A stretch of DNA of 64,000 nt from Chloroflexota bacterium. GTDB taxonomy: Bacteria > Chloroflexota > Anaerolineae > Anaerolineales > E44-bin32. Shown piece by piece: positions 20,897-43,911 of this stretch. The stretch's first letter is position 1; each line of letters opens with the position of its first letter. The position numbers were made by a program, and so were the translations under genes. The stretch is taken from assembly GCA_022561215.1 (NCBI GenBank), contig JADFRQ010000009.1, positions 1 to 64,000 on the forward strand, given 5' to 3'. Under the pieces are notes generated by a model that was not told the DNA's origin, did no database searches, and saw only the letters and a program-made list of their open reading frames with translations.

Positions 20897-21331
20897 TCAC
20901 TCCCAGTTTTCTAAAATTCCAGGGAATCCGCCAATCCGTGCGCGCAATACCTCCACGCCCTGCTGATTGGTACAATGGCAGCCGAGCAAGATCCACGCCT
21001 TTTCCTGATCCATTTCAATAATCTCGGCATGGGCAGTGATCGTATCACCGATAAAAACGGGTGCGACAAACTCGAGCTCCATTTCTTTTGCAACAAAGGC
21101 CCATAACCCACCAATGTGCGTGAGCATGCTTGCCGTAAGCAATCCGGGGAGGATGCGTTGCTTGAACGGCGTTGCGCTTACATATTCATCATCGGTGTGC
21201 AATGGGTTAATATCCCAATTAACCCCTATGAAAAGGGCAACATCAGCCTCCGTGAATGTTCGTGAATAGGCAGCTTTTGTACCGACCTCAAGATTGTCAG
21301 GTATACGATTGGGCAATCTTGGTTTATGCAT
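20897..21331 (-). CDS. MaoC-like (R)-specific enoyl-CoA hydratase
   Basis: A 144-residue single hot-dog domain with the hydratase 2 motif: FTEADVALFIGVNWDINPLHTD, with Asp and His as the catalytic pair, followed by LPGLLTASMLTHIGG. Such enzymes hydrate trans-2-enoyl-CoA to (R)-3-hydroxyacyl-CoA and link beta-oxidation to polyester or fatty-acid synthesis. The length is typical. It lies 69 bases downstream of the ftcD start codon, on the same strand upstream of ftcD, so the two may share a transcript. Confidence 0.85.
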   Translation of the reverse strand: MHKPRLPNRIPDNLEVGTKAAYSRTFTEADVALFIGVNWDINPLHTDDEYVSATPFKQRILPGLLTASMLTHIGGLWAFVAKEMELEFVAPVFIGDTITAHAEIIEMDQEKAWILLGCHCTNQQGVEVLRARIGGFPGILENWE

Positions 21332-34748: not shown

Positions 34749-35894
34749 TCAACCCAGGGCATGTTTGGAAATTACCATCCTTTGCACCTCGCTCGTCCCC
34801 TCGCCAATCGTCATCAATCTGGCGTCACGATAGAACCTTTCGACAGGATATTCCTGGCTGTAGCCGTAGCTTCCCAGGATTTGAATCGCATTACGACAAA
34901 CTTTTTCGGCCATTTCGGAAGCAAAAAGTTTTGCCATTGATGCTTCCTTCGTGAAACGTCCACCCTGATCCTTCTTCCACGCCGCATGGAAGATCAGCCA
35001 CCGCGCGGCTTCAATTTGAGTGACCCCATCCGCGATCATCCATTGGATGGCTTGATGCCCCGATAATTTCGCGTTAAATGCTTCTCTCTGTTTCGCATAA
35101 CGCATCGCTTCCTCGAGCGCGGCTCGAGCCAATCCGATCGCTAGCGCGCCAATGCTAATGCGCCCTCCATCGAGTGCTTCATACGTCTGGTATAAGCCCT
35201 GCCCAATTTCACCCAAGAGGTGTTTTGCAGGAACGCGCACATTCTCATAGCTCAGGGCGTGAGTCGGCGATGCTCTGACCCCCATCTTGCTTTCAGCAGG
35301 GTGAATGTGAAGGCCTTTGGTGTCTGTGGGAACGATAATCAGGCTGAAAGCTTTCGAGTCCTCCCGGGAATCGGTTCGACATAAAGTTACGACCAATGAA
35401 CCAACAGAAGGATTTGTAATCCAGGCCTTGCTGCCATTGATTACCCACTCATCACCATCCAACTCTGCATGTGTTTGCACGGCGCGGCTAAGATCGGAGC
35501 CTCCGGATGGCTCGGTAAGTGCTAGCGCGGCCAGGCCCGCCTCTCCGCTCGCAAGCGCAGGAAGCCAGTGTTTTTTCTGCTCTTCACTGCCAAAGAGGCT
35601 TATCGGCGCGCATCCCAGGCCATTATGAGCGGAAACAGAAAGTGCTGTTCCACCACATGACCAACCTAATTCTTCTATCGCTATGGCAGCACTGATCGAA
35701 TCAATTCCGGTACCGCCATATTCCTCGGCGATATTTAATCCCAAAAGCCCTAAAGGGCCCATCTTCTTCACCGCTTGGTGATTGAAGGAAGCATTCGCAT
35801 CCATTTCGGATGCCTTTGGCTGAACTTCTGCCGCGCAAAATTCATGCACTGCTTGCTTCCACATTTCTTGTTCATTCGTAAGCTTGAAATCCAT
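34749..35894 (-). CDS. Acyl-CoA dehydrogenase
   Basis: A 381-residue FAD-dependent acyl-CoA dehydrogenase of usual length. The N-terminal helical domain starts MDFKLTNEQEMW. The middle domain has the FAD-contact signature ALTEPSGGSDLS and WITNPSVG. The C-terminal domain holds ILGSYGYSQEYPVERFYRDA and the catalytic Glu in MTIGEGTSEVQ. It introduces the alpha-beta double bond in acyl-CoA. The start at 35894 has GAGGAG; an upstream extension of 58 residues is not homologous. It follows the acyl-CoA synthetase by 49 bases and is probably in its operon. Confidence 0.95.
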   Translation of the reverse strand: MDFKLTNEQEMWKQAVHEFCAAEVQPKASEMDANASFNHQAVKKMGPLGLLGLNIAEEYGGTGIDSISAAIAIEELGWSCGGTALSVSAHNGLGCAPISLFGSEEQKKHWLPALASGEAGLAALALTEPSGGSDLSRAVQTHAELDGDEWVINGSKAWITNPSVGSLVVTLCRTDSREDSKAFSLIIVPTDTKGLHIHPAESKMGVRASPTHALSYENVRVPAKHLLGEIGQGLYQTYEALDGGRISIGALAIGLARAALEEAMRYAKQREAFNAKLSGHQAIQWMIADGVTQIEAARWLIFHAAWKKDQGGRFTKEASMAKLFASEMAEKVCRNAIQILGSYGYSQEYPVERFYRDARLMTIGEGTSEVQRMVISKHALG

Positions 35895-35943: not shown

Positions 35944-37914
35944 TCAGGTTTCTGCGGATCGCATTTTCGAGATTGATTCCAGCGATTCAGGATTGACGAG
36001 AGAGCTGATATCACCTGGATCCTCGCCAAGAAACGCTGCTCGTAAAACCCTGCGCATAACCTTTGCATTGCGCGTTTTAGGAAAGTCGCGAACGAAATGG
36101 ATCAGCTTCGGCGCCAATGGCTTCCCGAGCTCAGAAGCCACCAGTGCTTTCAACTCATCCTCTAGGCCTGGCGGGACATTTTCCATCGAGATTGGCACAC
36201 AAAAGCAAACCAAATTGCTGCCCTTGATTGCATCGGGTATGCCGATCGCGGCCGCCTCTATGATGGACGAATGCTCAATCAGGATCGACTCCACCTCAGC
36301 TGGCCCGAGTCGCTTTCCCGCGATTTTAATGGTGTCGTCCGATCGGCCGTAGATGTACCATAAATTGTCATCGTCAACCGAGGCCCAATCTCCGTGAACC
36401 CATAGTTCAGGATATCGAGACCAATAGGTCTGCTCGTAACGTTCAGGATCTTTCCAGAAACCGCGCGTCATGCCAAGCCAGGGCGAGCGAATGGCGAGTT
36501 CGCCCACTTGATTACGGACGGGATGGCCATCTTCATTCAAGACGACGGCGTCAATTCCAGGACAGGGGCCAGAGAAGGCAGTCGCCTTCAATGCTGTTAT
36601 CGGATTGCCCATAAGGATCCCGCCTGCGATCTCCGTTCCTCCCGAATAATTTATGATCGGGAGCTTACCTCCGCCCACGTTGCTAAAAAGCCAATGCCAT
36701 GGTTTAGGATTCCAAGGTTCGCCAGTGGAGGCAAACAATCGCAGGGAAGAAAGATCATGAGCACGGATAGGCTCTTCACCGTGAGGAATTAGGCTGCGAA
36801 TAAATGTTGGCGATAAGCCAAATGCTGAAATTTTGTGCTGCGCGGTCATGGACCATACTCGATCGGGTCCTGGATAATCGGGTGCGCCGTCATAGATGAA
36901 CATTGTGGCACCCAGGATGAGTGATCCAAAAACAAGCCACGGCCCCATCATCCATCCCATATCGGTCATCCAATAGATTAAGTCACCAGGATGGACATCC
37001 GTTCCAAACGCCATATCCTGCGCCGCTTTTACCGGGAAACCACAATGCGTGTGTACAGTTCCCTTCGGTCGCCCAGATGTACCGGAGGTATAGAGGATCA
37101 TCAAAATATCTTCTGCAGCGGTATCCGCAATTGTCGATTCGTCCTCCTGAACAGGAACAAGCTCATGCCACCAATAATCTCGTCCCTCCTGCATGGCGAT
37201 TTCGAGGGCCAGATAACGCAGGACGATAATGTGCTCAAGCGTGGCTACTCTCGAAGCAGCCTCATCAGCAATTGGCTTAACAACGATATTTTTGCCGCGT
37301 CTCCTGAACCCGTCCACGGTGAAAAGTGCTTTTGCCCCCGCGTCAGTCAATCGCTGGGCGACTGCCCCTGATCCATAACCGGAAAACAGTGGCAGGATAA
37401 TGCCTCCGATGCGAGCAATGGCCAATAATGCAATAACAACCTGCGGCGTCATGGGCATGAACAATCCGATTGCGTCGCCTTTTCCCAGGCCCAGCGTGCG
37501 CAGCGCATTCGCAGTTCTGTTTACTTGTTCTAAGAGTTCGGCGTAGGTATAAGCACCGCTTTTCCCATCCTCGGCTTCCCAAATCAATGCCTTGGTAGAT
37601 TCTGTCGGCGTGCCGATATATTGATCCAAACATGTTTCCACGATATTGAGCTTTCCGTCGAGGCACCATTCTGGCCATGCCGATCCCCGGCTGAGATCAA
37701 CCACCTGTGAATAGGGTCGGCTGAAACGGATACCCAAATAAGCATAGACAGCATCCGAAAACCAGGCAATATCATCGGCTGCCCTTCGATGCAATTCTTC
37801 CAGTTTGGAGATTCCCAACTGCTTCATAAAGTGAGTAAGGTGGGCGCGCGCAACCACTGCCGAGGATGGCGTCCAGACGAAGGAACTCCCGGTGGTTGAT
37901 GTGGGGTTGGTCAT
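35944..37914 (-). CDS. Acyl-CoA synthetase (AMP-forming, acetyl-CoA synthetase-like)
   Basis: A 656-residue ANL-superfamily ligase of the Acs type. Visible motifs are ILYTSGTSGRPKGTVHTH (P-loop, about 265-285), YSGGTEIAGG (A5), WVHGDWASVDDDN (A7), YIYGRSDDTIKIAGKRLGPAEVE (A8 hinge) and the C-terminal catalytic Lys in PKTRNAKVMRR (A10, a known acetylation site in this family). It activates a short or medium carboxylic acid with ATP and CoA; the substrate cannot be read off. The next gene, an acyl-CoA dehydrogenase, would use its product. Confidence 0.92.
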   Translation of the reverse strand: MTNPTSTTGSSFVWTPSSAVVARAHLTHFMKQLGISKLEELHRRAADDIAWFSDAVYAYLGIRFSRPYSQVVDLSRGSAWPEWCLDGKLNIVETCLDQYIGTPTESTKALIWEAEDGKSGAYTYAELLEQVNRTANALRTLGLGKGDAIGLFMPMTPQVVIALLAIARIGGIILPLFSGYGSGAVAQRLTDAGAKALFTVDGFRRRGKNIVVKPIADEAASRVATLEHIIVLRYLALEIAMQEGRDYWWHELVPVQEDESTIADTAAEDILMILYTSGTSGRPKGTVHTHCGFPVKAAQDMAFGTDVHPGDLIYWMTDMGWMMGPWLVFGSLILGATMFIYDGAPDYPGPDRVWSMTAQHKISAFGLSPTFIRSLIPHGEEPIRAHDLSSLRLFASTGEPWNPKPWHWLFSNVGGGKLPIINYSGGTEIAGGILMGNPITALKATAFSGPCPGIDAVVLNEDGHPVRNQVGELAIRSPWLGMTRGFWKDPERYEQTYWSRYPELWVHGDWASVDDDNLWYIYGRSDDTIKIAGKRLGPAEVESILIEHSSIIEAAAIGIPDAIKGSNLVCFCVPISMENVPPGLEDELKALVASELGKPLAPKLIHFVRDFPKTRNAKVMRRVLRAAFLGEDPGDISSLVNPESLESISKMRSAET

Positions 37915-41995: not shown

Positions 41996-42544
41996 TTAGT
42001 TCTTGGGCAAGAAATATACGTCGGTCGGCTTTAACTTGCTATTGCGTAGAAAGCGCGGTTCGACTGCCATTCCTATCCAATCCAGGGATGCTCTATCGGG
42101 ATCGAGCCCCATTAGGCGCGTGAGAAAGAGGGTGTCGACATCTTCAAATTCAATCAACGCCAGAATATAGGGAGTCTCAGGTAAAAATTCTTCGGAACCA
42201 AAATAACATACCGTGAATGCGTGCACTTGCGCGTTGCGGTGAGTTATATCGATCCATTCCGTCTCTTCGCCAGAGTACATATCGTGACCGCGCGGAGTGG
42301 CGTACGTATAGCCGCTGTCTGGATCTCTCGAGGCGAGAAGTTTTTTGTTGGATGCAGCCGCAAACCACGGGCTGTCTTGTGCGTAGGAGTGAAGGTAGGT
42401 GACTTTGTATTCGTGTTCGATGAGTAACGGGCGCATACGCTTGAGAAAGGCTAAAGCGTCTGGATCAAGTTCAGCGGGGAATGGTATGCCGTGAACAATG
42501 TAGCCGCCAAGCGTTTCTGGGCGTTTTGATGAGAGCTTTGCCAT
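41996..42544 (-). CDS. DUF35-type OB-fold protein lacking the zinc-ribbon cysteines
   Basis: A 182-residue partner protein of thiolases. The C-terminal OB-fold (about 95-165: HRNAQVHAFTVCYFG ... PYILALIEFEDVDTLFLTRLMG) is intact. In the preceding rubredoxin-like ribbon the usual C-x2-C pairs are replaced: LLASRDPDSGYTYATPRGHD, just before GEETEWIDI, has no Cys. Family members bind and support the thiolase subunit, or act in acyl-CoA aldolase/hydratase complexes. It starts 2 bases after the thiolase-like stop, so the two are co-translated and probably form a complex. Confidence 0.8.
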   Translation of the reverse strand: MAKLSSKRPETLGGYIVHGIPFPAELDPDALAFLKRMRPLLIEHEYKVTYLHSYAQDSPWFAAASNKKLLASRDPDSGYTYATPRGHDMYSGEETEWIDITHRNAQVHAFTVCYFGSEEFLPETPYILALIEFEDVDTLFLTRLMGLDPDRASLDWIGMAVEPRFLRNSKLKPTDVYFLPKN

Positions 42545-42546
42545 AA

Positions 42547-43911
42547 TCAGTCCTCTGTTTCCAAGATGGTGACGGTTACATACGTTCCGGTACCGGCGTG
42601 TGAGTGAATGGCCCCTCGTTGAGCGTCTTTAACTTGTAAGGTGGGATCACCGAAATGCGATTCGATCGAACCCTGCAGCTGCCAAAGGGCAAATACGGCT
42701 TGCATTAGGCCGGTGGCTCCGACAGGATGTCCGCAAGCAATTAAGCCCCCCGAAGGATTAACTGCACATACCGGTTCATCTTTTAACGCAAGACCATAGT
42801 CAATTCCAGGCATAAAAGCCTTCCCCGATTCAGCGAAGGGCCCACCCTCGCCATATGTGCAGAGACCCAAATCTTCATAGGTTTGGATTTCGCTTGAGGT
42901 GTAAGCGTCGTGTAGTTCAATAAAATCAAGTTCATTTAAAGGATCATATATCCCGGCATGTCGATAAGCCATATTTCCGGCGGTACGGCCAGCGCGAAAG
43001 GAATGCACCCCAGGATAACGCGTACCCTTATCCCATAATTTCTTATAGGCGGCCTTGGTCGCTTCCGAATCTTTCTCTTGTTCGGTTGCATAATCTCTCA
43101 TGAAGGTATCGTAATCAACATGCGGGCGGTCTGCCATTCGCATGGCATCCGTGCCGCGCCCAATTCCCGTGATTTTCACCAGCGGCCGCTTAATGTGCGC
43201 CCCAGCATCCTCGAGTTTTTTGAGCCCTTCTTCCGAGACCAGAATGGCTGTGGCCGCACCATCGGACATGACACAAATATCCAGCCGAGTTAGAGGCCAA
43301 GCGACCATCGTCGATGATCGAATATCCTCAATCGTGTAGCGGTTGCGTTTTTGGGAGAAGGAATTGTAGTAGGCGTTAATATGATTTTTTACGGAAACAT
43401 GCGCCATTTGTTCAACAGTCGTGCCATATTCCTTCATGTGTCGCGTGACCATCATCGCGTAATACCCGGAATAAAAACCACCCACCGGATAATCCCATGA
43501 TACATCCGAGGCCAGGGCAATAAACTCATTCCCTTTCCAAGTCTCGACATGGCTCATCGTTTCGAACCCGTAGGCGACGCAAACATCCATGTGTCCAGAG
43601 GCAACAGATTTCCATGCCTCTTGAAAGCACAATCCTCCGGTGGCACCGCCACCTTCCACTCGATGACTCGGTTTCGGGCAAAGGCCGAGATAATCCTGGC
43701 CCATAATTCCTGCCATGAGTTGGCGGGTGAAATGGTCGGAGAAATAAGAAGCAACGGAGCCATCAACAATTGAGGTGAAGGTCTGGAAATCCAGGCCAAT
43801 GTCGTCGATGGCATCGCTGTAGGCCTCTTTTATTAATGCCTGGAAGGTCTTGTCGTTACGGGCTTTGGCGAACTTGGAAACGCCTCCCGTCACCGTGTAA
43901 ACTGGGCGCAT
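42547..43911 (-). CDS. Thiolase-superfamily protein (SCP2/Ltp type) without the usual nucleophile
   Basis: A 454-residue thiolase-fold protein. The late NPSGGLIACGHPVGATGLMQAVFAL and the end AGTGTYVTVTILE are the family's C-terminal motifs. At the nucleophile position, where thiolases read (V/I)E-x-x-C-A-S-G-G, this protein reads VEGGGATGG (85-93), giving Gly for Cys; the nearest Cys is 6 residues on. The second catalytic Cys of classical thiolases (CxG near the C-terminus) is also absent. This resembles lipid-transfer-type thiolase homologues, some of which work as aldolases with a DUF35 partner. ATG 43911 has GGAGG. Confidence 0.85.
   Translation of the reverse strand: MRPVYTVTGGVSKFAKARNDKTFQALIKEAYSDAIDDIGLDFQTFTSIVDGSVASYFSDHFTRQLMAGIMGQDYLGLCPKPSHRVEGGGATGGLCFQEAWKSVASGHMDVCVAYGFETMSHVETWKGNEFIALASDVSWDYPVGGFYSGYYAMMVTRHMKEYGTTVEQMAHVSVKNHINAYYNSFSQKRNRYTIEDIRSSTMVAWPLTRLDICVMSDGAATAILVSEEGLKKLEDAGAHIKRPLVKITGIGRGTDAMRMADRPHVDYDTFMRDYATEQEKDSEATKAAYKKLWDKGTRYPGVHSFRAGRTAGNMAYRHAGIYDPLNELDFIELHDAYTSSEIQTYEDLGLCTYGEGGPFAESGKAFMPGIDYGLALKDEPVCAVNPSGGLIACGHPVGATGLMQAVFALWQLQGSIESHFGDPTLQVKDAQRGAIHSHAGTGTYVTVTILETED

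Follow-up and report, generated by a model that had tools for sequence, protein, structure and literature searches.

The window analysed here, a 64,000-nucleotide stretch of DNA from a Chloroflexota bacterium (contig JADFRQ010000009.1), contains two adjoining genes that raise one question: what does a thiolase-fold protein do once the cysteines of its active site are gone, and the DUF35 protein encoded beside it has no zinc site? The first-pass annotation, made from the sequence alone, had noted both losses and suggested a further aldolase of the Ltp2 type or a new acyl-CoA-handling complex.

Active site of the thiolase-fold protein

The two genes (Table 1) are separated by 2 bp, and both are on the minus strand. 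Pfam models Thiolase_N, Thiolase_C, and Thiolase_C_1 matched the larger protein, and OB_ChsH2_C (PF01796; 34 bits compared to a cut-off of 27.1) was the only match in its partner. The top family match of the thiolase-fold protein was PRK06365 (NF004982), at 585 bits, which is below the curated cut-off of 695. A relative at locus L194 exceeded this cut-off (744 bits) and carries the residue set GGGATGG/HDAY/CGHP/HSHAG, which implies that PRK06365, a named but uncharacterised family, includes members that lack the cysteine. No mention of PRK06365 was found in the literature searched.

Table 1. Features of the window discussed in the text
Feature	Position	Strand	Remarks
Thiolase-fold protein without catalytic cysteines, PRK06365-like	42547..43911	minus	454 aa; Pfam, profile, and model evidence
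DUF35/OB_ChsH2_C partner without zinc-ribbon ligands	41996..42544	minus	182 aa
Acyl-CoA synthetase, acetate/acetoacetate-CoA ligase-like	35944..37914	minus, strand of the pair	homologue recurs beside the pair elsewhere
Acyl-CoA dehydrogenase (ACAD)	34749..35894	minus, strand of the pair	homologue recurs beside the pair in other genomes
Gly89 codon, where thiolases have the nucleophile Cys; motif V85-E-G-G-G-A-T-G92	43645..43647	minus	alignments
Asp59-His60, SDHF motif	43732..43737	minus	kept in every GGATG-clade branch examined
His334 of HDAY, position of thiolase Asn316 and of SCP2 HDCF; Tyr in Ltp2 and Sal aldolases	42910..42912	minus	
His395 of GHPVGATG, position of thiolase His348	42727..42729	minus	
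Cys393, directly ahead of GHP	42733..42735	minus	invariant in window branch and zinc-type sister; elsewhere Thr/Arg
His438, where thiolases have the CxG cysteine (Cys378)	42598..42600	minus	alignments
Region of the lost zinc ribbon in the DUF35 protein, with D74, S77, D88, S91 in place of the Cys ligands	42272..42325	minus	

In profile alignments with 6ESQ, 7YVY, 7PXP, and zebrafish SCP2-thiolase, the nucleophile Cys aligned with Gly89, and this placement was ungapped in all five profile alignments shown. The motif VEGGGATGG thus stands where the nucleophile was expected, as the annotation had read it. The second catalytic cysteine is likewise gone: the Cys of the SCP2-type HDCF motif aligned with Ala336 (HDAY here), and comparison with a canonical thiolase of the same genome placed His334 at the Asn of NEAF, His395 at the His of GHP, and His438 at the Cys of CxG. 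By contrast, GHPVGATG is retained, and His395 is invariant in 123/123 sequences. Cys95, which the annotation had named as the residue that might prove to occupy the nucleophile position, was rejected as a shifted nucleophile, because Gly89 aligns there and Cys95 lies six residues beyond with no gap and is Cys in only 116 of the 123 homologues. Judged by these residues, the protein is not a thiolase, since it keeps the GHP histidine but neither cysteine, and without the nucleophile it cannot make the thiolase acyl-enzyme. The database name of this Cys-less family is nevertheless thiolase, and pathway predictions that count the family as a beta-oxidation thiolase are consequently wrong.

The residues D59, H60, G88, G89, H334, D335, C393, H395, H436, and H438 were invariant in all 123 fetched homologues, which come mainly from Anaerolineae, extend down to about 54% identity, and include some loci fetched twice. 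Of 298 genomes surveyed at class level, 46 contain a close homologue, scoring about 550 bits or more against PRK06365. Scanning of GTDB genome contigs yielded 499 loci, and almost all of the best 80 carry the label Anaerolineales or Chloroflexota. At every locus where the contig continues, a DUF35 gene lies next to the thiolase-like gene on the same strand. The recurrence of one active-site set in all 123 sequences, together with the adjoining DUF35 gene, implies that the arrangement did not arise by accident in a single gene, and the pattern of replacement in the aligned sequences is far beyond chance. Moreover, because both catalytic cysteines gave way to invariant residues and the other active-site histidines are invariant, the family shows what would be expected of an enzyme rather than of a decaying copy.

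Cysteine-less relatives and the zinc-less partner

The window branch grouped with a branch at 54-57% identity and with a sister clade at about 40% in a tree of 37 proteins, forming a single strongly supported clade (100/100) whose members all have GGGATG. The sister clade (L121:4105-5319, L122:641-1840, L123:4695-5969, L124:4405-5631, L128:3873-5090, and L129:4471-5730) has YDSY for HDAY, GAP for GHP, and Arg at the position of Cys393, and its motifs make it the better fit to the Tyr signature of aldolases. Most of its members adjoin a DUF35 gene that retains the zinc cysteines. Some of its loci lie amid genes for dihydroxyacetone kinase (DhaK), DeoC/LacD aldolase, and aldehyde dehydrogenase-like, nucleoside phosphorylase-like, and hydrolase-like proteins, and a role of this clade in sugar breakdown is possible. 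Homologues from other classes of the phylum (L197 and L198; 37-41% identity) have TGGATGG, HDAF, and SHAG.

Nucleophile loss appears to be frequent, by motif, among the SCP2-type thiolases of this class. The genome of the window encodes two further thiolase-type proteins without the nucleophile: one with VRAATASG adjoining a CoA-transferase family III-like gene (G000 contig C89, L136:7453-8595), and one with IEAAGASGG, GDTGG in place of GHP, and an adjoining zinc-type DUF35 gene (G000 contig C44, L137:8841-10025). Another Cys-less group (L125:3018-4205, L126:4365-5555, and L127:4058-5245) has VENGPASG at the nucleophile position and keeps HDAF and GHP. A haloarchaeal thiolase-family protein with NVENGGATGA at the nucleophile position is encoded on a plasmid of Halococcus dombrowskii (L185:3001-4170), with a DUF35 gene and genes for enoyl-CoA hydratases as neighbours.

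The claim that the DUF35 partner keeps its OB-fold and has lost all four zinc-ribbon cysteines was borne out: PF01796 matched, the zinc ribbon PF12172 (zf-ChsH2) gave no match in the 182-aa protein at E 0.1, and the ligand columns read D/S/D/S. In related zinc-type sequences these columns are Cys in 15/15, 15/15, 15/15, and 14/15, the sole exception being an Asp at the fourth ligand in L121. None of the 109 window-type (clade A) DUF35 sequences has the Cys4 set; their columns hold D/E (103), S/T (101), D (94), and S/T/D (107). Relatives of the thiolase-fold protein at 37-63% identity lack the nucleophile, yet their partners keep the zinc site. Among them, the L194 protein is about 63-69% identical and its partner retains the zinc cysteines; PF12172 matched the DUF35 partners of both L194 and L195. 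These Cys-less relatives with zinc-type partners show, on present alignments, that zinc loss came after nucleophile loss, the nucleophile having disappeared at the base of the clade and the zinc site later, in the window branch. All DUF35 proteins characterised by 2019 bind zinc in equivalent positions (PMC6996347), and the zinc-less partner therefore does make the pair more unusual, as had been suggested.

Gene neighbourhoods and the proposed reaction

In the window, the acyl-CoA ligase and ACAD genes lie 4-7 kb from the pair on the same strand. Elsewhere the thiolase-like gene (THIO) and DUF35 recur in the orders THIO-DUF35-MaoC-ACAD (L195, L196), THIO-DUF35-CoA-transferase A/B-ACAD (L157, L200), CoA-transferase A/B-THIO-DUF35-ACAD (L198), THIO-DUF35-ligase-ACAD (L197), THIO-DUF35-ACAD (L139, L140, L150, L174), and ligase-ACAD-THIO-DUF35 (L066). 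Outside the window branch, 7 of 10 loci have an ACAD gene within 3 kb of the pair, for which a rough estimate from ACAD counts gives a random-placement probability of about 2e-8 or less. No 3-hydroxyacyl-CoA dehydrogenase was seen in these pair/ACAD clusters. MaoC adjoins the pair in L195, L196, and the MCC-CitE clusters described below, but not in the window, and an adjoining hydratase occurs in a minority of loci only. A MaoC-like hydratase-type protein is encoded at 20897-21331 of the window, on the same strand and about 21 kb away, and is a candidate for a hydration step. The region 2500-19500 of L198 encodes three thiolase-like proteins, of which two likewise have no obvious nucleophile Cys, along with two DUF35 proteins, a CoA-transferase pair, MaoC, and several ACADs. 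The CoA-transferase of the clusters is GctAB-like; an IpdAB-like ring hydrolase was rejected, because the protein matches glutaconate CoA-transferase best and retains the catalytic Glu.

A second context, MccB-BC-BCCP-MaoC-CitE, resembles the leucine/itaconate module of M. tuberculosis in its gene order. In that module the CitE-like Rv2498c cleaves (R)-HMG-CoA (PMC6689899). This context is confined to some Anaerolineales, and MCC was present in 7/46 pair-bearing genomes compared to 75/252 others, so that an obligate link of the pair to leucine catabolism is not supported and leucine degradation was rejected as its core function. Neither MCC nor CitE was found in the genome of the window at the thresholds used. 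Replacement of HMG-CoA lyase by the pair was also rejected, since the difference in HMGCL occurrence (1/46 compared to 29/252; p = 0.06) is too weak and is confounded by ancestry.

We favour, with a probability of about 0.42, the interpretation that the pair acts as a heteromeric C-C lyase on acyl-CoA and would split a beta-hydroxyacyl-CoA by retro-aldol cleavage without an acyl-enzyme. The two proteins would form one complex, with the thiolase-fold protein as catalytic subunit and DUF35 as scaffold. A carboxylic acid would be activated by the GctAB-type CoA-transferase or an AMP-ligase, dehydrogenated by the ACAD, and hydrated by MaoC or another hydratase; cleavage would then yield an aldehyde or ketone and acetyl-CoA (or a homologue). 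The oxyanion hole may be formed by His334 and His395, which occupy the enolate-stabilising positions of thiolases, and His438, in place of the former acid/base Cys, may serve as base and acid in the space left by Gly89, possibly together with Asp59-His60. The occurrence of activation, ACAD, and hydratase genes without a visible 3-hydroxyacyl-CoA dehydrogenase points to a beta-hydroxyacyl-CoA substrate and thus to a retro-aldol reaction like that of Ltp2 and Sal. This interpretation is further supported by the replacement of the catalytic cysteines by invariant residues beside invariant active-site histidines, by the constant DUF35 neighbour, by the aldolase-type Tyr (YDSY) of the GGGATG sister clade, and by CtSal, whose nucleophile position is likewise Gly (PMC12329534). 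Against it, where Ltp2 and Sal have their Tyr base this protein has His334, the residue found in thiolases (HDxF), the GHP of thiolases is retained, and few loci have an adjoining hydratase. In addition, fold and sequence are nearest to acetoacetyl-CoA thiolase (TMq 0.82, compared to 0.72 for Ltp2), and a thiolysis-like or hydrolytic cleavage of a beta-ketoacyl-CoA fits most of the same data.

Such a retro-Claisen reaction without an acyl-enzyme, in which CoA or water would directly attack a beta-ketoacyl-CoA (or the reverse reaction would form it), is in our view unlikely. His438 would activate the thiol or water, and His334 and His395 would hold the enolate. The scheme agrees with the retained His pair (HDxF, GHP), which stabilises the acetyl-CoA enolate in thiolases, with acetoacetyl-CoA thiolases as nearest relatives, and with acetoacetate/acetate-CoA ligase or CoA-transferase neighbours that would supply the beta-ketoacyl-CoA. 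However, no thiolase known to us is active once its nucleophile Cys is gone, the same genome has three canonical thiolases above the family cut-off for ordinary thiolysis, and the clusters show no 3-hydroxyacyl-CoA dehydrogenase.

It is improbable that the pair is a pseudo-thiolase, a non-catalytic complex for acyl-CoA binding or regulation. The loss of both cysteines would suit such a role, and PhlA of PhlABC is a precedent of an inactive thiolase-superfamily subunit beside a DUF35 protein (PMC2954200), but the invariance of D59, H60, H334, D335, H395, H436, and H438 in the 123 sequences is hard to explain without catalysis, and the operon contains no active thiolase partner. Decarboxylation of malonyl-CoA-type or beta-keto-acid thioesters, similar to that by Cys-to-Gln ketosynthases and to the weak activity of the Trypanosoma brucei SCP2-thiolase-like protein (TbSLP), is quite improbable. 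Loss of the Cys with an intact enolate-stabilising His pair, as found here, is the pattern of decarboxylating thiolase-fold enzymes, and biotin carboxylase/MCC genes adjoin the pair in some Anaerolineales. TbSLP slowly decarboxylates malonyl-CoA, but CtSal does not (PMC12329534), and MCC genes show no genome-wide co-occurrence with the pair (7/46). Finally, a thiolase with its nucleophile relocated to Cys393 by the GHP loop is highly improbable: this residue is invariant in the 123 window-type and sister zinc-type sequences and non-Cys in the aligned thiolases, but it is Thr in L197 and L198 despite their TGGATGG, HDAF, and SHAG motifs, and Arg in the YDSY sister clade, and so does not belong to the common active site.

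We conclude that the pair most likely breaks C-C bonds of beta-hydroxy- or beta-ketoacyl-CoA in a manner similar to Ltp2 and Sal, and that this cutting of carbon chains probably follows an as yet unmeasured chemistry. If the retro-aldol lyase interpretation is true, the pair adds one more active-site solution to the few known reuses of the thiolase fold. The roles of the DUF35 zinc and of each replaced residue can be tested directly, given the activation and dehydrogenase genes nearby and a natural series that includes both zinc-type and zinc-less partners.

Comparison with known thiolase-fold systems

An AlphaFold model of the 454-aa protein built from 65 sequences (pLDDT 91.8, pTM 0.93) has the thiolase fold; one built earlier from 11 close sequences was of poor quality, with a pLDDT of 57, and was set aside. 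The nearest solved folds are 6ET9 and 6ESQ (TMq 0.81-0.82), followed by 7YVY and SCP2-type thiolases, with Ltp2 (6OK1) at 0.72. By sequence, the best match among solved structures is 6ESQ (2.8e-44), which is far ahead of 6OK1 and 9MYR by this measure, and of 6OK1 by fold as well. 6ESQ and 6ET9 are structures of the archaeal acetoacetyl-CoA thiolase from the Methanothermococcus thiolase/HMG-CoA synthase/DUF35 complex, which shares the DUF35 partner and the GHP-type loop. The pair differs from it by the change of Cys to Gly89 and of the HDCF Cys to Ala336, by the absence of an adjoining HMG-CoA synthase, and by the zinc-less partner. The benzoylsuccinyl-CoA thiolase BbsAB is likewise a thiolase/DUF35 pair in an acyl-CoA degradation cluster, and the Ala of its HDAF recurs in HDAY, but BbsB retains the nucleophile Cys. 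TbSLP has the thiolase fold and does not share the SCP2-thiolase cysteines (PMC12329534); it differs in its YDCF motif and in having no DUF35 partner, and is more distant (TMq 0.75, 19% identity).

The steroid side-chain aldolases Ltp2-ChsH2(DUF35) and Sal-Shy(DUF35) resemble the pair in their thiolase fold, DUF35 partner, lack of a nucleophile, and gene sets with ACAD and MaoC hydratase. The motif comparison with Ltp2 and Sal rests on PMC12329534, the 37-protein tree being built without their sequences. In both aldolases the catalytic Tyr of the YD[HC][FY] motif is essential (PMC12329534). By contrast, the motif here is HDAY rather than YDHF or YDCY, so that the Tyr is absent and its position is His334 in 123/123 sequences. 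Moreover, GHP is kept, the DUF35 protein is separate, zinc-less, and without a fused MaoC domain, and the window protein is nearer to archaeal thiolases by sequence and fold. No other steroid genes were noticed near the pair. Of the two suggestions in the first-pass annotation, the Ltp2-type aldolase therefore stands as an analogy, in Cys-less thiolase/DUF35 architecture and gene neighbourhood, and not as membership, whereas the sequence evidence, as far as it can go, supports the new acyl-CoA-handling complex well. Lacking the Tyr, the zinc, and the kinship, the pair is, on aligned residues, not a member of the Ltp2/Sal family. Because the modelled fold is nearest to 6ET9 and 6ESQ, with Ltp2 lower, the nucleophile was probably lost independently of the loss in Ltp2 and Sal. 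More tentatively, the pair may belong to a phylum-wide group of Cys-free thiolase-fold C-C lyases in which Cys-Asn-His-Cys became Gly-His-His-His (plus Asp-His) and zinc was later dispensed with; serving an acid catabolism pathway of its own, this group would represent a third independent route beside those of Ltp2 and Sal.
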